64,000 bases of DNA, taken from Gammaproteobacteria bacterium. GTDB lineage: Bacteria > Pseudomonadota > Gammaproteobacteria > Xanthomonadales > Marinicellaceae. A program made the position numbers and the translations under genes. Each line of letters begins with the position of its first letter. The stretch's first letter is position 1. Location of the stretch: NCBI GenBank assembly GCA_024280395.1, contig JAJRQG010000001.1:1-64000 (forward strand), given 5' to 3'. Below the pieces are notes generated by a model. It was not told the DNA's origin. It saw only the letters and a program-made list of their open reading frames with translations, and did not search any database. This document shows, piece by piece, positions 11,091 to 55,480 of this stretch.

Positions 11091-12614
11091 TTAATTTAAT
11101 GAATAGAGCCCATGTTTTAACAATTGAGCACCACACAAGAGCCTTTTTATCGAGCCATGGTTCTCTTTTGTTAATTGTGGAGTTAACTCAATGAATTTAT
11201 TATTTGATATGTCCAACGGCCATGCACAAAGAATATTTGAAACGCCCTGTTCCAAGGGTCCCGATGACTTATGGATAACAGTATTGATATTGGCATCAAC
11301 ATACACAATTCCAAGTGCAACACCATCAACTGAACCATCTGAAATAGAATTGGTTACTTTGTATCTTCCAGTCAATTCACCCTTTGTGGTTTTATATTGC
11401 CAAGTTTGTATTTGATGGTTGAATTTTTTCAAAGGCCCCAGTTTTAACCATGCTTTATTGTTGTTGTTTTTTGATTTAAACTCGAGTTCAACAAAAGTAT
11501 TTTGATTATCAAGCCCGTCATAAAAAGTAGCAATTTGGATAGATTGATTCCCAAGTTTTCCAGACCTCAATGAAGGTAAATCATAGGAAACAAACTCAAC
11601 AAAATCTTTGATTTTAGGTAAATCATTGTTATTGACACATCCAGATAATGATATTCCCGTTACAACCAAAAATAAAAAAGAAAGTTGGGACAACTTAAGT
11701 TTATGATAATCATCATTGACAATAGCTTTGATTCTTTGCTTTAACAGACTTTGTTTGCATGACATGAAAGGTACCAAAGATAATTCTTTGTCATTTTTGG
11801 GGAGAATCAATAAAGTGTTTGCATATGAACTTGCGTTGATACCTTCAGAAACAAGTTTTTTGTCACATGCCAATTCAATAAGGTATTTATGTTGCGTATA
11901 TAAATATTTCATTAGGGGATGAAACCAATACACAATTGAGGCCACAGAGGATAAATACAATAACCAATGGTCTTTTCTTCTATAGTGACATATTTCGTGT
12001 TTTGCAATATTTTGAATATCTTTTACTGCCCATTGGAGAACATGAGTTGGCATAACTATTTCAATAGATTTGATGCTCACAAATAAAAAGGGGACATTGA
12101 TTAAATTACTGATATTATAATTTATGGTTTTTCCTTTTAATGATTTTAATAAATAAGGTTTATGAAATACTTGAGAATGTTTAATAATTCTCTTTAACTC
12201 AAAAATCTGTTTGATATACCGAAAAACCTGAATAATCAAACCAAGCAACCAAACAAACAAAAACAAATATGATACAAAAATTTTAAAAAAAATATCAGAT
12301 TTAGGTGCTTCTTTTTCATTTTTCATTTTTTTTTGGGAACTGAGGTCAAGATGGTTATCTGCTATATTAGGACTTTGATAGAACTTTTGTGTCGGTGAAA
12401 TGATTTCAGAGTTTATAACTCCTGAAAAAACAGATCCAGCTTTATTAAGATTAAAAGAAAGGGGGGTATAAGACAATAAAGGAAAAAGTAAACTCACTAA
12501 AAAACCAAAAGCTAATATTTTATGCCTTAAATTTGGACTATTAAATCGAAATAAATACAATGCGCATAGACAAATAATAAGAATTATCGATGTTTTAATA
12601 AGTACAATTAACAT
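11091..12614 (-). CDS. BlaR1/MecR1-type M56 membrane metallopeptidase (sensor)
   Basis: A 507-residue membrane protein. Transmembrane segments near residues 2-20, 32-50 and 110-130 precede an M56 peptidase domain. The zinc motif HEICH is at 206-210, with the third ligand region ELACD at 247-251. A further hydrophobic segment lies near 310-327 (ending SGCV). The C-terminal 180 residues are predicted extracytoplasmic; they lack the penicillin-binding SxxK of true BlaR1, so the signal is probably not a beta-lactam. Known relatives cleave or trigger cleavage of a BlaI repressor. It follows blaI by five bases in the same operon. Confidence 0.85.
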   Translation of the reverse strand: MLIVLIKTSIILIICLCALYLFRFNSPNLRHKILAFGFLVSLLFPLLSYTPLSFNLNKAGSVFSGVINSEIISPTQKFYQSPNIADNHLDLSSQKKMKNEKEAPKSDIFFKIFVSYLFLFVWLLGLIIQVFRYIKQIFELKRIIKHSQVFHKPYLLKSLKGKTINYNISNLINVPFLFVSIKSIEIVMPTHVLQWAVKDIQNIAKHEICHYRRKDHWLLYLSSVASIVYWFHPLMKYLYTQHKYLIELACDKKLVSEGINASSYANTLLILPKNDKELSLVPFMSCKQSLLKQRIKAIVNDDYHKLKLSQLSFLFLVVTGISLSGCVNNNDLPKIKDFVEFVSYDLPSLRSGKLGNQSIQIATFYDGLDNQNTFVELEFKSKNNNNKAWLKLGPLKKFNHQIQTWQYKTTKGELTGRYKVTNSISDGSVDGVALGIVYVDANINTVIHKSSGPLEQGVSNILCAWPLDISNNKFIELTPQLTKENHGSIKRLLCGAQLLKHGLYSLN

Positions 12615-12619
12615 ACTCT

Positions 12620-13024
12620 TTATTTATCGCCTTTATTTTTAAAATTTTCAATCATTAAGGCCAATTCTTCAAGTTCTTTTTTATCAATATTCAATGAATC
12701 TTCATCTATAAAAGTTGCTACTGCATCAGTAACTGAGCCTGAAAAAAAGGTATTAATGAGTTTATTGAACATCTGACTAGCTGCAATTTCCTTTTTTATC
12801 AAAGGTTTATATATGAACTGATTGCCTTTAGTATTATGAACAGTATAGTTTTTTGATTCTAAAGTTCTGAGAATTGTCCTAACAGTGGCATTGTTTAAAT
12901 CTCCAGACATATACTTCTGTATTTCATTGGCACTGCATGATTCAAATCGATAAATGAGGTTCATTGCCTCTTCTTCTCTTTGTGTTAAACCATCCAAGCT
13001 GCCTTTTCTTCTTCCTCGTGACAT
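12620..13024 (-). CDS. BlaI/MecI/CopY-family transcriptional repressor
   Basis: A 134-residue winged-helix protein. LTQREEEAMNLIYRF, SANEIQKYM, and NATVRTILRTLESKNY form the DNA-binding domain typical of BlaI/MecI (Penicillinase_R). A short helical C-terminal dimerisation part follows. Family members bind palindromes as dimers and are removed by proteolysis through the BlaR1 partner, which is encoded next. A palindrome upstream (13082-13097) resembles the pair before the FG-GAP gene, so autoregulation and control of that gene are likely inferences. Confidence 0.9.
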   Translation of the reverse strand: MSRGRRKGSLDGLTQREEEAMNLIYRFESCSANEIQKYMSGDLNNATVRTILRTLESKNYTVHNTKGNQFIYKPLIKKEIAASQMFNKLINTFFSGSVTDAVATFIDEDSLNIDKKELEELALMIENFKNKGDK

Positions 13025-13494: not shown

Positions 13495-15954
13495 TTAAAC
13501 AAAACTACTTTTTGCTGGGAGTATCTTCACCACATCAGAAAAAATCCCAGCTGCAGTTACATCTGCTCCCGCTCCATATCCACGCAGAACCATAGGAATG
13601 GGTTGGTAGTATTGACTAAAGAATGATATGGCATTTTCGCCGCACTTAACTGAGTATAGAGCTGATGTGTTGGCTACTTTTTCAATTTTAACCGTGCATT
13701 TACTATCTTCAACGGTACCGATATAGCGTAGCACGGCATTTTCTGATTGTGCTTGATTACATAAATTTTGGATTGAGTCATCAAGACTTGGTAGTTTCTG
13801 CATAAATTCATCAACGCTTTTGCATTCTTCTAATTCTTCGGTTAATAATGAGTCAATTTTTACATCCCTAAGCTCTAGATCTAGTCCTGCTTCACGCGCC
13901 ACGATTAATACCTTTCTAGCTATATCCATTCCAGAAAGGTCATCTCTTGGGTCGGGTTCGGTGAAGCCTTTGGATTTGGCGCGAATCACAGCTTCAGATA
14001 AAGGGAGTCCTTCGTCTAATTTGCCAAAGATATAGGACATGGAGCCCGACAAAATGCCTTCAAATTTAACCAAAGTATCGCCTGCACGAATCAAGTTTCT
14101 GAAGGTATCAATCACGGGCAAACCTGCACCCACATTGGTTTCATAATTAAATTGGCGATTGGTTTGAATAGCTTTGGTTTTTAATTTCTGATAGTATTGC
14201 ATGCTCAATGTATTGGCTTTTTTATTGGCGGCAACTATATGATAGCCAGCTTCAAAGAAACCTAAGTAAGCTTCTGCGATGCTTGTTGATGACGTACAAT
14301 CAACGATGATCGGGTTAATCATATTGGAGTGTTGTCGAAAGGCTTTTAGCTTTTCGTGGTTAAAACTTTCAAGTTCGGTAGACAATAGCTGCTGGTAGTT
14401 TTCAAGGTTGATGCCGTCTTCTTTGAGTAATGCACCTTTAGAATTAACAATACCGCAGACTTTAATGCTAATGTTTTGCTTTTCTAAGAATGATTGCTGT
14501 TTTTGTATTTGCTTTAAGAAGGCATCTCCCACCAGTCCACAACCAATTAAGATAATTTCTACTTGCTGTTTGGCATCAAAGAAAAGTTGGTGGCAACTTT
14601 TTAATCCGCGTTTGACTCTGTTTTCTTCAACTACAGCTGAAATAGACCGTTCATTTGAGCCTTGTGCGATGGCAATGATATTGACATTGGCAATGGCAAG
14701 TGCTTGGAAAAATTGCGCGGCTGTTCCGCGACGTTTTTTCATGTTATCAGAAATCAAAGTTATCACAGCCAAGCTATCTTTGAATACAATAGGTTCTAAC
14801 AATTCATTTTTTAATTCTAAGGAGAAGTTATCTTCTAAAGTGTCTTTTGCCAATTGTTTGGTTTCTGTATCGATACAAAAGCTGATGGAGTACTCTGAAG
14901 AAGATTGAGTAATCAAAACTATACTAATATTTTGCTTGCTTATGCAATCAAATACACGAGCAGCCATGCCAACCATACCTTTCATACCTGGGCCGCTAAC
15001 GGTTACCATTGACATATTGTGCATACTTGATATAGCAGTGGCAAAATTATTTGTGTTATACGAGCTGTGGCTGATGGTTGTGCCTTTGCTGTCTAAATTA
15101 AATGTATTGCGAATTACACAGGGAATATTAGCTTGCATCAAAGGAGTAATGGTTTTTGGGTGTAATACACTGGCACCAAAATATGATAGCTCCATAGCCT
15201 CGTAATAGCTTAATTGGGGCACCAAATACGCCGAACTGATGTCTCTTGGGTTGGCATTATAAACACCATCGACGTCTGTCCATATTTGACATGCATCAGC
15301 ATTTAAACTAATAGCACATAAGGCCGCAGTATAGTCAGAGCCGTTGCGCCCTAGGGTGGTGGCCTTACTGGTTGAACTGGATGAGGCAAAACCTGCCATT
15401 AATAATACCTGGCATTTATTGTTTTGATAGAGTGCGAAATTTTCTTTGGTTTTATCAATAGCTACATCACCGGTGAAGGGGGATTCAGTCGTGATGATAC
15501 AACTTCTTGAATCTATAATTTGTACCGTTAAACCCAATGATATTAACTGTGAATACATGATACACACGGATAATTGTTCGCCCAAAGTAATCAGCCATGC
15601 ATAAATATCATTTGGACACTGTTTTAACAATGCGACTCCTTGAAGTTTGGCGTGGGCCTCTTGAAACAAATAATTGATGTGCGTTTGTTGTTTTTGTGCT
15701 TCTAACAGGCAAGCACAGTTGAGTTTTTTTAGCGTTTCGTGGTGCTTGTCTTCTAGTGTGATTAGTAAACTTTGCCAATCATCGTCATTAATAGCAGTTT
15801 CAATGATGTTAATTAATTCATCAGTGACTTTACCCATGGCTGATAATATTACGGCTAATTTATTTGACTGGGCTGATTGAGCAATAATATTTGCAACGGA
15901 TTGAAGTTTTTCAGCTGAGGCTAGTGAGGTTCCACCAAATTTTTGTACTAACAT
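13495..15954 (-). CDS. thrA: Bifunctional aspartokinase/homoserine dehydrogenase I
   Basis: An 819-residue fusion enzyme catalysing the first and third steps of threonine and methionine synthesis. The aspartokinase part begins with VQKFGGTSLASAEKL. It includes the TTLGRNGSDYTA signature, and two ACT regulatory domains follow (about residues 315-460). The NAD(P)-binding LIGCGLVGDAF near 466 opens the homoserine dehydrogenase part. This part has AANKKANT, NYETNVGAGLPVI and the GFTEPDPRDDLSGMD active-site segment. Length equals that of E. coli ThrA. thrB and thrC do not follow, so the pathway genes are split. Confidence 0.97.
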   Translation of the reverse strand: MLVQKFGGTSLASAEKLQSVANIIAQSAQSNKLAVILSAMGKVTDELINIIETAINDDDWQSLLITLEDKHHETLKKLNCACLLEAQKQQTHINYLFQEAHAKLQGVALLKQCPNDIYAWLITLGEQLSVCIMYSQLISLGLTVQIIDSRSCIITTESPFTGDVAIDKTKENFALYQNNKCQVLLMAGFASSSSTSKATTLGRNGSDYTAALCAISLNADACQIWTDVDGVYNANPRDISSAYLVPQLSYYEAMELSYFGASVLHPKTITPLMQANIPCVIRNTFNLDSKGTTISHSSYNTNNFATAISSMHNMSMVTVSGPGMKGMVGMAARVFDCISKQNISIVLITQSSSEYSISFCIDTETKQLAKDTLEDNFSLELKNELLEPIVFKDSLAVITLISDNMKKRRGTAAQFFQALAIANVNIIAIAQGSNERSISAVVEENRVKRGLKSCHQLFFDAKQQVEIILIGCGLVGDAFLKQIQKQQSFLEKQNISIKVCGIVNSKGALLKEDGINLENYQQLLSTELESFNHEKLKAFRQHSNMINPIIVDCTSSTSIAEAYLGFFEAGYHIVAANKKANTLSMQYYQKLKTKAIQTNRQFNYETNVGAGLPVIDTFRNLIRAGDTLVKFEGILSGSMSYIFGKLDEGLPLSEAVIRAKSKGFTEPDPRDDLSGMDIARKVLIVAREAGLDLELRDVKIDSLLTEELEECKSVDEFMQKLPSLDDSIQNLCNQAQSENAVLRYIGTVEDSKCTVKIEKVANTSALYSVKCGENAISFFSQYYQPIPMVLRGYGAGADVTAAGIFSDVVKILPAKSSFV

Positions 15955-38850: not shown

Positions 38851-39504
38851 ATGAGTGAAGCATTATTTGATATCGTATTTAAAGGAAAATTTGTTAGGCA
38901 GATTGATCAAACAAAGGCCGTACTGCATTTTTCTAAATTGTTTAAAATGTCAATCGAAAAAGCCCAAATGTTTTTTGATGGAAAAGCCCGACCATTAAAG
39001 AAATCATTGACTCTAGAAAAAGCCAGTCATTTTCGTGCGGCTCTTAAAAAAGCAGGTCTAAGGGTATCGATGGTGAAGCAAGAGCCTGAGGAATCTACTG
39101 CAAAAGAATCAATAACCCTATCAGAAGTGGGCGCTGTTTTTGCCAATAAGCCTTTTATACAGCCCAAACATTACGATACATCGCAGTTCTCTTTGGATGA
39201 ATTGGGTGTAGAAATTACTCATAAAAAAGCCATTGAAAAGCCAGAGTTTGATTTGCACGAATATCAGATGGATGAGGTTGGAGTAGCATTCGCTCAGAAA
39301 CAAGAGGTCCCTGAATTGGATATTGATATATCAGAGTTAAGCATGGATGAGGTGGGTGCGATTTTTGCCGAAAAGCAAATAATCGCAGAACCTGAACTGG
39401 ATATAAGCTCTATATCTATGGAAGAGGTGGGTGCGATATTCGCTGAAAAAAAGAAAATCCCAGAACCTGAAATTAACATTGATGACATAGAAATGATTGA
39501 TTGA
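38851..39504 (+). CDS. Repeat protein with a small N-terminal domain, function unknown
   Basis: 217 residues, no signal peptide. The first 75 residues (FDIVFKGKFVRQIDQTKAVL, FFDGKARPLKKSLTLEKA, FRAALKKAGLRVSM) form a compact domain. It resembles one found fused to various proteins in Xanthomonadales-like bacteria. The rest is five imperfect acidic repeats of 25-27 residues with the pattern SMDEVGAIFAEKQxIxEPEL. Such a modular tail suggests a scaffold or binding role. It follows the acyltransferase gene with a 10-base gap and may be co-transcribed. Confidence 0.6.
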   Translation: MSEALFDIVFKGKFVRQIDQTKAVLHFSKLFKMSIEKAQMFFDGKARPLKKSLTLEKASHFRAALKKAGLRVSMVKQEPEESTAKESITLSEVGAVFANKPFIQPKHYDTSQFSLDELGVEITHKKAIEKPEFDLHEYQMDEVGVAFAQKQEVPELDIDISELSMDEVGAIFAEKQIIAEPELDISSISMEEVGAIFAEKKKIPEPEINIDDIEMID

Positions 39505-46496: not shown

Positions 46497-46715
46497 ATGG
46501 CAAAAGAAGAAGTAATCGAGATGGAAGGTGTAGTTACCGAAACTCTCCCAAATACCATGTTTAGAGTAGAACTAGAAGGTGGTCATATCGTGACAGCACA
46601 TATTTCTGGTCGCATGCGCAAACATTATATTCGCATTTTAACGGGTGATTCCGTTACTGTTGAGTTGACTCCTTATGATTTGACCAAGGGTCGTATCACT
46701 TTCCGAAAAAAATAA
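46497..46715 (+). CDS. infA: Translation initiation factor IF-1
   Basis: 72 residues, the usual length. [40 protein letters not shown] and the C-terminal KGRITFRKK are near-universal IF-1 sequence. The stop codon TAA forms the first base pairs of the tandem repeat that follows. Confidence 0.99.
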
Positions 46716-47148
46716 CTTCAAGTACTTATCTTTTTCCCAATTTCTGCGGTGTTTCCGTACTCGAACTGATTACATAGGCGACTATGCTCACAGTTCTGTG
46801 CTCGAAAACACCTTGACCTAGGAAAAAATCTAAGCACTTGAAGCTATTTTTGCAAAATAACTTCAAGCACTTATCTTTTTCCCAATTTCTGCGGTGTTTC
46901 CGTACTCGAACTGATTACATAGGCGACTATGCTCATAGTTCTGTGCTCGAAAACACCTTGACCTAGGAAAAAATCTAATCGCTTGAAGTCATTTTTGCAA
47001 AATAACTTCAAGTACTTATCTTTTTCCCAATTTCTGCGGTGTTTCCGTACTTGAACTGATTACATAGGCGACTATGCTCACAGTTCTGTGCTCGAAAACA
47101 CCTTGACCTAGGAAAAAATCTAATCACGTGAAGTTATTTTCATAAAAT
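46714..47148. repeat. Three tandem copies of a 145-base palindromic element
   Basis: Units start at 46714, 46859 and 47004, exactly 145 bases apart, and differ by only a few substitutions. Each opens AACTTCAAGTACTTATC and closes with its near-complement GCACTTGAAG. It is centred on CATAGGCGACTATG, so every unit is one large imperfect hairpin with arms of about 65-70 bases. Inner arm pairs include GGTGTTTCCGTACTCGAACTG against GTTCTGTGCTCGAAAACACC. No protein is encoded. The array fills the gap between convergent infA and clpA and may serve as a bidirectional terminator. Confidence 0.9.
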
Positions 47149-51494: not shown

Positions 51495-51720
51495 CGTTGA
51501 CAATTGAAAACGGCTGGGTAATTCGGAACCGCTGCTTTAGCTGCGCCTATATTCAGAACTCTTAAGACCCGTCATTATGGTTGTTTATACTAGTAGTGTA
51601 AACCGATGTTTTGGTTTAGTTCGAGTTGCAGGACTGAAGTCCCGATTCCGTATTGCTTTATCATTCCGCTGTGGTCTTTGTGAGCGTTGTGCGAAAACAG
51701 CTTTTGATTTTTAATTGAAA
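51495..51720. repeat. Dispersed repeat, intact copy A
   Basis: About 200 bases from TTGACAATTGAAAACGG to GTGCGAAAACAGCTTTTGAT. Shared blocks with copy B (55085 onward) include CGCTGCTTTAGCTGCGC and GATGTTTTGGTTTAGTTCGAG, then GCAGGACTGAAGTCCCGATT, in the same order. The element holds small palindromes (GGGACTTCAGTCC type; GCTTTAGC) but no reading frame. A diverged tail copy lies at 73-159. Confidence 0.8.
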
Positions 51721-52214
51721 CAAACCACCATTAAAGCCAAAAGAATCGTTGCTTCAGCCCTGTATACTCGAATTTAAAGTAAAATAAATAAACTAAGTCA
51801 AGAAATAACAATCAATTACATTAGAGAAATCTTATATAAAATCAATTTCAAAAAAATAGTTGACTTAAATTTTCAATGGTGACAATATACGTCAAGTAAC
51901 CTGTTCGGATATGATAACTTTTGACCAAAGTTTGACTTGAAATTGACCAAGATTTGACCAAATCTAAAACAATTCATAAAATCCTGTTGAGTAAAATTGA
52001 CCCAATCCAAATAGTGTTGCATTTTTATTAACAAATCGGATTATATATGACAATACTCGGTGGGAGTGGCGTATAAATTGTTTCTTTTTACTTTTAAAAC
52101 TTACTCAATATGAAAAACTATTGAACTTCATTTTAAAAACAAAAATAAATCAATTTATCTATCCATCCCATCCAACCATTGGCAGATATATTCCTCAAAA
52201 AGGAAAAAAATAAA
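51721..52214. other. Non-coding stretch upstream of the phase-variable gene
   Basis: About 490 AT-rich bases with no reading frame. Apart from the phased TTGAC repeats at 51921-51964 it holds only the probable promoter region. A ribosome site AAGGA ends ten bases before the ATG at 52215. TTCC and GGAA around it could form a small hairpin masking that site. Confidence 0.5.
51921..51964 (+). promoter_or_regulatory. Four phased 11-base TTGAC repeats
   Basis: TTGACCAAAGT, TTGACTTGAAA, TTGACCAAGAT and TTGACCAAATC start at 51921, 51932, 51943 and 51954, exactly 11 bases apart; a further TTGACCCAA is at 51997. Direct repeats with 11-base spacing are the site type of OmpR/PhoB-family regulators. A single TTTGACCAAA also lies before the small peptide gene (41358). 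Confidence 0.6.
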
Positions 52215-53083
52215 ATGAAACAAAATAAAATTTTAACCGCGCTCGGCCTCGCCTGCACAGCACAGCACAGCACAGCACAGCACAGCACAGCACATTTAGA
52301 CAACTCACTAAACGCATAGTTCATGTTACCGCTTTTACTGTCTCTTGTTTGGTGGTGTTGCCGAGTTTTGCTCAAAGTGGTTGTGGTTGGGATGCATCTA
52401 CTGGAACTATAACATGCCCTTCTCCTAGTCCACCTCAAAATCCACCAGGTTGTGATTATTTAGGAGATCCTGATTGTGATGATGGAGATGATGGTGGAAG
52501 CAGTGGGGGTGGAGGTAATGATCCAGACCCTGATGCTCTAGCTTGTACGCAGCATTATCAATTTAAAGATGAGGAGTGTCTTATTGACCCTGAAGATCAA
52601 TATAAATTCAACTGGAACCCATTTGGTACAGATTTCAGCCTGTTGTATAGCAGCTGGGCAGGTTTAAACGGATTGCCATCTGGTTTTTTTCCAGATTATG
52701 GGGCTCCAGTTCAAGTCTATCAAAATATTATTCGAGATGTCGCTCAAGCCTATTGGACAAACCAAACCTCACAAGCGATAAGTAGTGCTTATTGGTCAGC
52801 TGTAAACGTTTTTTGTATTGGTTTTCCTGAAGAAGCTATTTTTACTGCAGATAGGGCTGATTGTTATGAAGATGCATACTCTGTTTCACTTCGGCTAATA
52901 CCATCTTTTTCTGATCACGCATTCACCATTAGTCAAGTTGAGGGTTATGGGGTCACTATTCAACACTTAACATCAAATAATCCCTTTGCCAATTGGGCTG
53001 CTCAGTTCTTAACTGAGATTAATGATGTTAAAGAATGTAAAATATGGTTTGATGGAAAAGATCAAATCCCAGGTTGTGAATAA
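52215..53083 (+). CDS. Secreted acidic protein, apparently phase-variable and out of frame here
   Basis: From ATG 52215 the frame reads MKQNKILTALGLACTAQHST and enters a (GCACA)8 tract. With eight units it stops at 52317-52319 after 34 codons. The frame after the tract is open to 53083 and lacks an ATG; its first start is a TTG at 52349. Loss of one unit, or gain of two, joins both parts into about 287 or 292 residues. That joined protein has RQLTKRIVHVTAFTVSCLVV LPSFAQS, a good signal peptide, then a Pro- and Gly/Asp-rich segment and a C-terminal domain with several Cys and aromatic residues. No family is recognised. The next gene is 13 bases downstream. A sequencing error in the tract is the main alternative. 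Confidence 0.65.
52255..52294 (+). repeat. Pentanucleotide tract (GCACA)8
   Basis: Eight perfect GCACA units in 40 bases, inside the start of a coding region. Units of five bases change the reading frame when copy number changes, the hallmark of contingency loci. The tract and the preceding CGCGCTCGGCCTCGCC are far richer in GC than the surroundings. Confidence 0.95.
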
Positions 53084-53096
53084 ATAGGAGAACAAT

Positions 53097-53885
53097 ATGA
53101 AATACAATAAAATAGTTATATTATTAATAATCATGAGCATAATTTATTTTGGGAGCAGACATAACAGTGTTGACTCTGAAAATACAAAGCCACTCAAGAT
53201 AGTAAAGACTAAAGTGGTAGAGAATATTTATCATAAAAATAATCCTGTAAAATCAAGGAGTAATAATAAAATAAGAACTAAAAGCTCTCAAGAAATAAGT
53301 GAGATATTACAGATTTTACAAAATCCAAGTGATGAGGAACTAAGTTATATCTGGGAAGAAGAGTATTCTTGTTATTATAGTCAAGCAGGGCAATGTCGAT
53401 ACAGCTTACTTAATGCAAAATCACTAGAAGAAGCAAAATGGATGAGAAATAATGGCTATCCGACAAGAAGTATGTTGGATCTGATGAATGATGATAGCCG
53501 TGCACAAGAGTTAATGGAATTAGTTAAGGATAAGTATCCTGCTGCTTTAACTGTTGCATCTATAAGTGCTATGGAAAGAGGTGACTTCAAGGAAGCGTCG
53601 CAATTAGCACTACTAAACTTAACATACTCTGATGAAGCAAAAACATATCCTCATTTGCTCTATGGAGAAGCAATGGTACTTAATAATATGTTACCTCTTG
53701 CATTGCCACAAATTTATGTGGCAGGATTGTTGGGCGACTCTAACGCTCAAGGAAGAGCTACATCGTTATCTGCCGATGTATATGTTTCTACTAGTGCATT
53801 AAATAGCGCACATGGTTATTTAAGGAGAGTATTTGGAGGGTCGGTACCAAAAGATCAAAGGCCTAAAAATAACGGCGGAGGATAA
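53097..53885 (+). CDS. Membrane-anchored or secreted helical protein, function unknown
   Basis: 262 residues; AGGAG six bases before the ATG. An N-terminal hydrophobic segment (residues 5-20, IVILLIIMSIIYFG) is a signal anchor or uncleaved signal. A basic linker precedes a helical region. It has SLEEAKWMRNNGYPTRSM and AALTVASISAMERGDFKEASQLALLNLT, then YGEAMVLNNMLPLALPQIYVAG, which look like TPR/Sel1-type helix pairs. It follows the phase-variable gene by 13 bases, so their products may act together; if that gene is off, translation here still has its own ribosome site. Confidence 0.6.
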   Translation: MKYNKIVILLIIMSIIYFGSRHNSVDSENTKPLKIVKTKVVENIYHKNNPVKSRSNNKIRTKSSQEISEILQILQNPSDEELSYIWEEEYSCYYSQAGQCRYSLLNAKSLEEAKWMRNNGYPTRSMLDLMNDDSRAQELMELVKDKYPAALTVASISAMERGDFKEASQLALLNLTYSDEAKTYPHLLYGEAMVLNNMLPLALPQIYVAGLLGDSNAQGRATSLSADVYVSTSALNSAHGYLRRVFGGSVPKDQRPKNNGGG

Positions 53886-53979: not shown

Positions 53980-55035
53980 TTGGAAAACAAACAAGTGAAG
54001 AATGAAAATATAAAATCAGGGCAACTTTATGAGTCAAACATTGAAAACTGTCCTGTTTTTATTCCAGAAAAATTATCTTTGTTTAAGTTTGAATTTTCAT
54101 TACAAAAATTAAAACGAATTAAAGGAAGTTTTCTATATTTTGAAAGTCAGTTTGAACTCTATTTTTATAAGTTTTTATCAGGAGGAAAGTCTCTTACTAA
54201 TGACTTTGTAGATGTCATTGTACAAGATTTATATCTTTGGAAATCAGCAAATGTTGCGAGGAGTGTTTATGTTAAAGAAGTTGTAAACGCCGCAATAAAA
54301 TATGAAAAAGTAGTTAATATTTTGATTCGAAATAAAAAGTTGACTAAATCTGTTTTATTAAAACAGAATAAATTGCTACGCCCAAGAGGTAAATTGTTCG
54401 GTATTCGAGAAACCCCAATGCGGGCAGGTGATCCAAAAACAAACAAATATGCATTTTATTGTGCCCCACATGAATGCATTAATGAATTATTTGTTGATTT
54501 AATTCAGTATATTGAATCTGACAACTCATCTGTGTTGAATAAATCATTGATTGGTATGATACAATTTATTTTTATCCATCCATATAAGGATGGAAATGGC
54601 CGTACTTCGCGTGCATTGTTTTTGTCACAAATGCAACCAAAATATGGGCTATCATCTTCGTCTTTATTTCTTATCTACTTGAAAAATATTAACCCTGAGG
54701 AATATTATGCTGCTATGCATGGTTTTCGGAATAGTAACTTTGAAAAATTGAAATTATTTTATATGCAGGCAATCGTATGGGTGAATCAGTCACTAGATGA
54801 ATTGCAAGATTTATTTGATGGTTATGTCAGTAAAATAGGTAAGAATAAATTTAAAGTAGAATATTCACAAATAGTTATAAAGGTTGATTTGAATCAGAGA
54901 GTGGATGAAAGTGTATTCCAATTTCACAGCAAAAAAGCAGGGAAGAATATCTATATCAATACGGCATTACTCAATGTCTTGAACCAATTTGATTATTATT
55001 TGAGGTATGAATTGAGGAAACACCAGAGCAATTGA
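53980..55035 (+). CDS. Fic-domain protein (probable AMP transferase)
   Basis: About 351 residues. The Fic motif HPYKDGNGRTSR is complete at 200-211, with catalytic His200. An N-terminal helical region with SGGKSLTNDFVDVIVQDLYL and RPRGKLFGIRETPMRAGD (the flap) precedes it. Family members transfer AMP or other phosphate groups to protein hydroxyls. No ATG begins the frame: a stop at 53968-53970 is followed only by TTG at 53980 or GTG at 53995. A 26-codon frame starting ATG 53925 overlaps it, which could reflect a frameshift or coupling. I see no clear inhibitory motif or antitoxin partner. Confidence 0.8.
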   Translation: MENKQVKNENIKSGQLYESNIENCPVFIPEKLSLFKFEFSLQKLKRIKGSFLYFESQFELYFYKFLSGGKSLTNDFVDVIVQDLYLWKSANVARSVYVKEVVNAAIKYEKVVNILIRNKKLTKSVLLKQNKLLRPRGKLFGIRETPMRAGDPKTNKYAFYCAPHECINELFVDLIQYIESDNSSVLNKSLIGMIQFIFIHPYKDGNGRTSRALFLSQMQPKYGLSSSSLFLIYLKNINPEEYYAAMHGFRNSNFEKLKLFYMQAIVWVNQSLDELQDLFDGYVSKIGKNKFKVEYSQIVIKVDLNQRVDESVFQFHSKKAGKNIYINTALLNVLNQFDYYLRYELRKHQSN

Positions 55036-55480
55036 CAATTAACAATGGATAATTGACAATTTAAAACTTAATTAATTGAAAATAGAAAGTTGAAAACGGT
55101 TGGATATTCGGAATCGCTGCTTTAGCTGCGCATAATTTAGGTCTCTTAAAACCAGCCATTATGGTGTTTATACTAGAAGTGTAAACTGATGTTTTGGTTT
55201 AGTTCGAGTTGCAGGACTGAAGTCCCGATTCCTAAATGCTTTATAATTTCTCTGTGGCCTTTGTGAGCGCTGTGAGTTTATGAAATAACTAACGGATGCG
55301 AGACTTCAGTCTTGCCGTTCTCGATTTTCTAAAAAACTCTAAATCATCAAACTACCATATAGCTAAGTTAATTGAAATTATACATCTTAATGCCATTGAG
55401 TAAGGCAAGGTTAAAACCTCGCATCCGAATAATTTTGAGTTATTCTACAGTCTCTGTGCGAAAACTGCTTTTGATCTTTT
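55036..55480. repeat. Dispersed repeat copy B, interrupted by a small element
   Basis: After a short AATTGAC-rich tract (55032-55080) copy B runs from 55085 to about 55274. It ends at GCGCTGTG, where copy A at 51495 would continue GTGCGAAAAC. That continuation is found at 55455-55475 (GTGCGAAAACTGCTTTTGAT). The 180 bases between them carry an inverted-repeat element (55275-55458). No gene is present in this gap. Confidence 0.75.
55275..55458. mobile_element. MITE-like insert with inverted repeats, 5-base duplication
   Basis: CGGATGCGAGACTTCAGTCT at 55293 faces its near-complement ending CCTCGCATCCG at 55427. The arms are 24 bases with several mismatches, and each contains its own small palindrome (GACTTCAGTC; GGTTTTAACC). 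CTGTG occurs on both sides (55270-55274; 55454-55458), which would be a target duplication. No transposase is encoded, so it would move in trans if at all. Confidence 0.55.

Follow-up and report, generated by a model that had tools for sequence, protein, structure and literature searches.

Repeat loci that switch a reading frame have been described chiefly in host-adapted bacteria. The locus examined here, from a gammaproteobacterium, raises the question of whether a pentanucleotide tract close to a start codon turns an exported protein on and off, as the initial annotation had proposed, or whether it marks a broken gene, a faulty assembly or a passive linker. The window, that is, the whole stretch of DNA analysed (64,000 nucleotides), contains the following features.

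52215..52254, plus strand: start codon and leader MKQNKILTALGLA, with AAGGA upstream (sequence reading)
52255..52294, plus strand: perfect pentanucleotide tract, (GCACA)8 (repeat search and sequence)
52317..52319, plus strand: TAG closing the frame as read, 34 aa (translation)
52295..53083, plus strand: post-tract frame with n-region, hydrophobic segment IVHVTAFTVSCLVVL, P/G/D-rich linker and Cys-containing domain, without Met (translation, alignment, model)
53097..53885, plus strand: partner gene with a predicted N-terminal helix at 4-20 (putative membrane anchor), a disordered linker and a putative TPR-like alpha-solenoid (model, Foldseek)
53980..55035, plus strand: Fic-domain protein, motif HPYKDGNGR (Pfam, alignment, PADLOC)

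Most of what had been claimed for the tract gene from the sequence holds on re-reading. The tract does consist of eight perfect GCACA units and begins 40 nt from the A of the ATG at 52215, which has AAGGA upstream as a Shine-Dalgarno (SD)-like site. As read, the frame from this ATG stops at codon 35, giving an ORF of 34 aa. The open frame beyond the tract runs for 262 codons (52295-53080, stop at 53081-53083) and, as stated earlier, has no ATG of its own, since Met is missing throughout. The length of 245 codons previously given for it fits the ORF started at a TTG (244 aa, 52349-53083) and falls short of the full open stretch. Frame reading also bore out that the ATG is joined to the post-tract frame at 7 or 10 units (-1 or +2); the gene is OFF as assembled and would be ON at either of these counts. 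Because any pentamer restores any frame at some count, the restorable frame is not used here as evidence. The tract encodes the pentapeptide STAQH in all three frames, and therefore slippage never creates a stop inside it. The post-tract frame opens with a basic stretch followed by the hydrophobic segment (15 residues, mean hydropathy 2.32), and the product is probably a surface or secreted protein, a label that rests on this export-signal-like segment and on conserved cysteines. ORF callers can misjudge repeat-switched genes of this kind, the main frame here being one without an ATG. Upstream of the tract gene, at 51920-51962, lie 11-bp imperfect repeats containing TTGACC (3.9 copies, 65% matches), possible sites for a regulator.

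The tract stands far above the background of its genome. Pentamers of at least 3 units are absent from 228,509 bases of that genome (20 sampled contigs), against 8 units in the window, and a single repeat with a unit of 4-9 bases reaches 4 copies there (GATTTA x4.5). In first-order Markov versions of the window (n=40) the maximum was 3.4 pentamer units. As in contingency loci, the tract is tandem and perfect, its unit is not a multiple of three, it lies in the 5' coding region and it is much longer than the background. Searching the whole genome for GCACAx3 recovered one further site (3 units, C153:1916), which follows the ATG of a gene resembling those for secreted proteins, here with a second type of leader. 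Among 33 genomes of the taxonomic family, GCACAx4 occurs in five, namely this genome and four others of the same genus, and the reversed pattern used as control in none of the 33. Other repeats in the window comprise a 145-bp unit in three tandem copies just outside a clpA-like gene (46709-47140, 95% matches) and a 75-bp imperfect duplication at 39328-39471 (1.9 copies, 77% matches).

The window locus is one of a family. Fourteen tract sites with related leaders, of 3 to 20 units, were found in 5 of the 11 genomes of the genus, the window's own (G000) included, with 2 to 4 sites per genome and AGCAC, AGAAC, AGCAC+AGTAC or CACAA as the unit. All 14 stand behind an ATG that has an SD-like, purine-rich stretch; all 13 with downstream sequence precede a long frame. 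The leader MKxNKILSALG is common to seven genus sites besides the window's, with near variants at G003:C82 and G006:C26. The counts below are taken from metagenome assemblies.

G000:C53 (window): 8 units, out of frame
G000:C153: 3 units, out of frame
G010:C87: 20 units, out of frame
G010:C64: 7 units, in frame
G010:C77: 11 units, out of frame
G010:C12: 12 units, out of frame
G003:C82: 11 units, out of frame
G003:C160: about 4.6 units, out of frame
G004:C197: 6 units, out of frame
G004:C54: 5 units, contig ends in tract
G004:C143: AGCAC then AGTAC, 63 bases in all (12.6 units), out of frame
G006:C74: AGAAC x10, in frame
G006:C123: 7 units, out of frame
G006:C26: CACAA x10, out of frame

With G004:C54 excluded from the ON/OFF count, as its contig ends in the tract, the SD-preceded ATG shares its frame with the post-tract sequence at two of 13 sites. 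These are G010:C64 and G006:C74, at the very counts, 7 and 10, that the initial annotation had asked of relatives with an intact frame, the latter with AGAAC as unit. The leader sets which count is in frame: G006:C123, also with 7 units, has one base more in its leader and is out of frame, as is G006:C26, where 10 units of CACAA stand behind a different leader offset. Eleven OFF sites out of 13 fit the expectation of one ON in three (P(<=2 ON) = 0.139) and are also compatible with genes that are mostly shut off. Other starts occur at some sites. In the long-ORF frame G006:C26 has a second ATG, which lacks an SD, and G006:C123 has a TTG; at G010:C12, G004:C143, G006:C26 and G000:C153 the long frame has an ATG inside the hydrophobic segment. 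G003:C160 carries its own ATG and a signal-like segment beyond the tract, and is perhaps not switched at all. Leader-DNA matches in G005, G001 and G002 were short and A/T-rich, had neither leader nor tract, and were dropped. G008:C314 covers about 10 bases of the leader gene before the contig ends, with no tract within that stretch. A protein search with the post-tract frame matched 8 of 61 genomes of relatives, in 2 genera; in a wider sample of 321 Gammaproteobacteria, taken to look beyond the family, the window's own genome alone had the body. Going by isolate names, some of the relatives are presumably from hydrothermal-vent samples.

The prevalence of out-of-frame lengths, at the window gene and at 11 of 13 sites overall, together with the second site of the same genome (C153), which has 3 units only and is likewise out of frame, could point to dead genes, frameshifted at the repeat and never switching back. 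We regard this as quite improbable. The window frame has kept 262 codons free of stops, two relatives are at in-frame counts, and dN/dS is about 0.17 against a relative that is itself out of frame. This relative, the body at G010:C87 (20 units), is 70% identical to that of the window, and differences at codon positions 1, 2 and 3 amount to 0.242, 0.187 and 0.488. By the NG86 method dN is 0.252 and dS 1.508, giving a dN/dS of 0.167 for 252 codons of this one pair, with dS so near saturation that only the direction of the result is safe; for the partner and Fic genes the ratios are 0.233 and 0.212. The post-tract frame thus appears to be under purifying selection though OFF in both assemblies. 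As in contingency loci, the downstream frame has been kept while OFF, in a single pair with dS near saturation and with an OFF state that is possibly recent in both.

The way in which the tracts differ points to slippage. Tract genes lie beside clpA, clpS and fadL in G000 and at G010:C64, G004:C54, G003:C82 and G006:C74, where the first two neighbours are what we take to be clpA and clpS and fadL is assigned through Pfam Toluene_X. G010:C64, in frame with 7 units, and G004:C197, out of frame with 6, are probably the same site: over about 650 columns of their alignment the sole internal indel is one 5-base unit, the next gap being of 3 bases at column 660. Identity over the 822 aligned columns in total is 77% because the sequences diverge in the second gene. 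G004:C54 runs out in the tract, G004:C197 starts 74 bases before it, and the two ends overlap by exactly 99 bases; therefore these contigs probably represent a single locus at which the assembly broke. At G004:C143 about seven AGTAC copies stand behind AGCAC units, as if the mutated unit had itself been amplified, and the tracts of G006:C74 and G006:C26 consist wholly of AGAAC and CACAA, respectively. Mismatch repair acts little on pentamer loops, and the window's own genome encodes a MutS-type gene. Repeat tracts mutate at 100 to 10,000 times the basal rate, according to a published account (PMC11868660).

Assemblies are error-prone at repeats, and the two broken G004 contigs illustrate this, so that one might suspect an assembly error concealing a tract of fixed, in-frame length. 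We give this slightly less weight still than gene death. Counts differ among genomes of separate records and 11 of 13 sites have out-of-frame lengths, short reads are usually longer than the 40-base tract, and a wrong count at the window would leave the family pattern standing.

A second secreted-protein gene provides clues on the origin of the tract. At the four loci examined (G010:C64, G003:C82, G006:C123 and G004:C197) the long frame of the tract gene overlaps this gene by ATGA, and the second gene has the same signal segment, with a fixed linker, MKxSxILKxLG...LLKKTMQxTAFTFSCLV, where the tract would be. Homologues in the sister genus (G018 and G031) have no tract in the sequence upstream; two further homologues, in G014, were excluded from this comparison because each lies on a contig that breaks off 4 bases ahead of the aligned signal segment. 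Given the fixed linker and the tractless homologues, the tract looks like an element added to an N-terminal linker. The protein might alternatively be made without any change in the tract, with translation starting at a non-ATG codon inside the frame or with the ribosome shifting frame, and with the tract as a passive linker, as TTG and GTG codons in the post-tract frame and the linker tolerated at the same place by the tandem second gene would allow, but this is about as improbable as an assembly error: the first TTG (52349) falls within the hydrophobic segment, so a start there would cut the signal, the 262 codons hold no Met, and a passive linker is not expected to remain a perfect pentamer with frame-breaking lengths.

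For the protein that would be switched, fold and family searches gave no informative match. An AlphaFold model of the body is helical and of low confidence (pLDDT 63); with this model Foldseek returned no PDB match at E < 0.001, and VIA-align no Z of 5 or more. A Pfam scan gave Penaeidin alone, below the cut-off (E 0.18), and neither NCBIfam nor PADLOC offered a family for the body or for the partner. A mobile origin was also considered, and set aside: a plasmid collection gave no match to the tract protein of G010:C64, and of 15 candidate stretches from viral contigs not one codes for a protein related to the body.

The genes downstream correspond to the earlier description of a co-oriented partner followed by a Fic gene. 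The partner ORF starts at 53097, 13 bases past the stop of the tract gene. Its model (pLDDT 77) has TPR proteins in the top rows of Foldseek (probabilities up to 1.00, best E 0.053), and a Pfam scan gave DUF2606 alone, below the cut-off (E 0.028). The Fic gene matches Pfam Fic with 42.2 bits (cut-off 24). Fic domains carry a motif of the HPFx[D/E]GNGR type, and HPYKDGNGR conforms to it. Across the 33 family genomes this protein has 10 matches with E < 1e-69, 9 of them on tract-locus contigs (the exception is G004:C199); by sequence it belongs to a tight subfamily. The best PADLOC match is SoFic (E 3.4e-21), a resemblance that does not bear on whether the protein acts in defence. Fic, body and partner-like genes adjoin without a tract on two contigs of the sister genus (G018:C7 and G031:C156), the partner-like gene being assigned by eye from a W-E-x-x-Y-G-C motif and the G018 Fic match crossing one stop.

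The module shows further variation. The Fic protein at G010:C87 (L134:5315-6418) has HPFYDANGR, against HP[FY]xDGNGR in the other five aligned, perhaps a weakened active site. G006:C123 (L062, 10000-21000) combines one full Fic gene with two partner-like genes and two N-terminal Fic fragments, at 12554-12820 (with a stop) and 13802-13918, an arrangement suggestive of module stacking through recombination at the start of fic. In the window a 188-bp repeat (51504-51691 and 55090-55274, 88% identical) flanks the tract gene, partner and Fic module, and is possibly an interspersed element marking its borders.

Slipped-strand phase variation at a simple-sequence contingency locus is, very probably, the explanation of the window tract; the switching itself we infer. 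The contingency-locus reading put forward initially gains support from unit counts that differ among relatives, some of them in frame, in a comparison between genomes of different species. Slipped-strand mispairing would alter the number of GCACA units, and every third count alone would join the ATG to the frame of export signal and secreted protein, so cells would be either ON or OFF. The window locus belongs to a genus-wide family whose leaders are related and whose bodies differ. Given the ATGA overlap with the next secreted-protein gene at four related loci, the switch would probably affect downstream translation there too. Expression, export and role are likewise conjectural; a likely role would be bet-hedging in an exported protein acting with a Fic protein and with a partner that is putatively membrane-anchored and TPR-like. 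With low confidence, we suggest that the exported protein is used in encounters with phages, predators, competitors or a host that has escaped notice.

The same unit also turns up elsewhere in the class. Of 369 sampled Gammaproteobacteria, four contain GCACAx4, the window's genome included, and none contains the reversed control. The three remaining genomes, all of other families, have 4 GCACA sites of 6 to 11 units (L184, L185, L186, L187). At G127:C64 the tract comes 10 bases after the A of an ATG and out of frame with a 384-codon frame that has no Pfam match and is hydrophobic by eye. At G291:C307 it follows at 2 bases, out of frame with a 638-codon caspase-domain frame, and at G291:C410 at 5 bases, in frame with an 84-aa ORF. 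The unit thus reappears close to the starts of genes in three or more unrelated places. At G175:C222 the tract is in frame with a formyltransferase domain; here the contig ends in the tract and the match begins at profile position 70, so the tract may or may not lie at a gene start.

More broadly, this uncultured lineage, which is without a known host and has several members apparently from hydrothermal vents, might possess an Opa-like, multi-locus repertoire of exported proteins that are switched. Loci would flip independently, bodies and partners would have been swapped behind a shared leader, and the start-proximal AGCAC switch would have re-arisen in unrelated genes of other Gammaproteobacteria (one for a caspase-domain protein, another for a probable membrane protein). 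We offer this tentatively, as a scenario falling a little short of an even chance. We know of no host for the tract-bearing lineage. If the scenario is true, it would imply either that the lineage has a host not yet recognised or that bet-hedging of the antigenic-variation type operates against phages, predators or competitors. A family of such loci in uncultured, apparently vent-associated bacteria would make it possible to ask of existing metagenome reads, with no other data, what selects phase variation outside a classical host.

The mechanism is known, and as far as searched the protein family and the organism are new to it: no title or abstract retrieved describes this family, in a literature search with thin coverage of subscription journals. 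In Bartonella simple repeats act as contingency loci (PMC11466379), a likeness in the type of locus; Bartonella is a host-adapted bacterium. The modS gene of Streptococcus suis has a GAGCA tract, with one of three consecutive lengths ON by Western blot (PMC8125046). Here too a pentamer lies near the 5' end, whereas unit, gene and organism are different and modS switching is experimentally proven. A type III mod gene of Pasteurella haemolytica is listed with a CACAG tract (Ryan and Lo 1999, as cited in PMC5149525), a rotation of GCACA/AGCAC, which controls a DNA methyltransferase and not, as proposed here, an exported protein. The neisserial opa genes contain CTCTT repeats within the coding sequence of the leader peptide (PMC3745409). 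They differ from the tract family, where the unit is AGCAC, placed ahead of the hydrophobic segment, and a putatively TPR-like and a Fic partner are present, and where the window body has no outer-membrane-barrel homology (Pfam scan; all-helical model, pLDDT 63). Nevertheless, in both a pentamer tract lies in the leader region of exported (here putatively exported) proteins that form a family encoded at multiple loci, with the unit count setting the frame, and by this analogy opa is the closest working analogue of the tract family.
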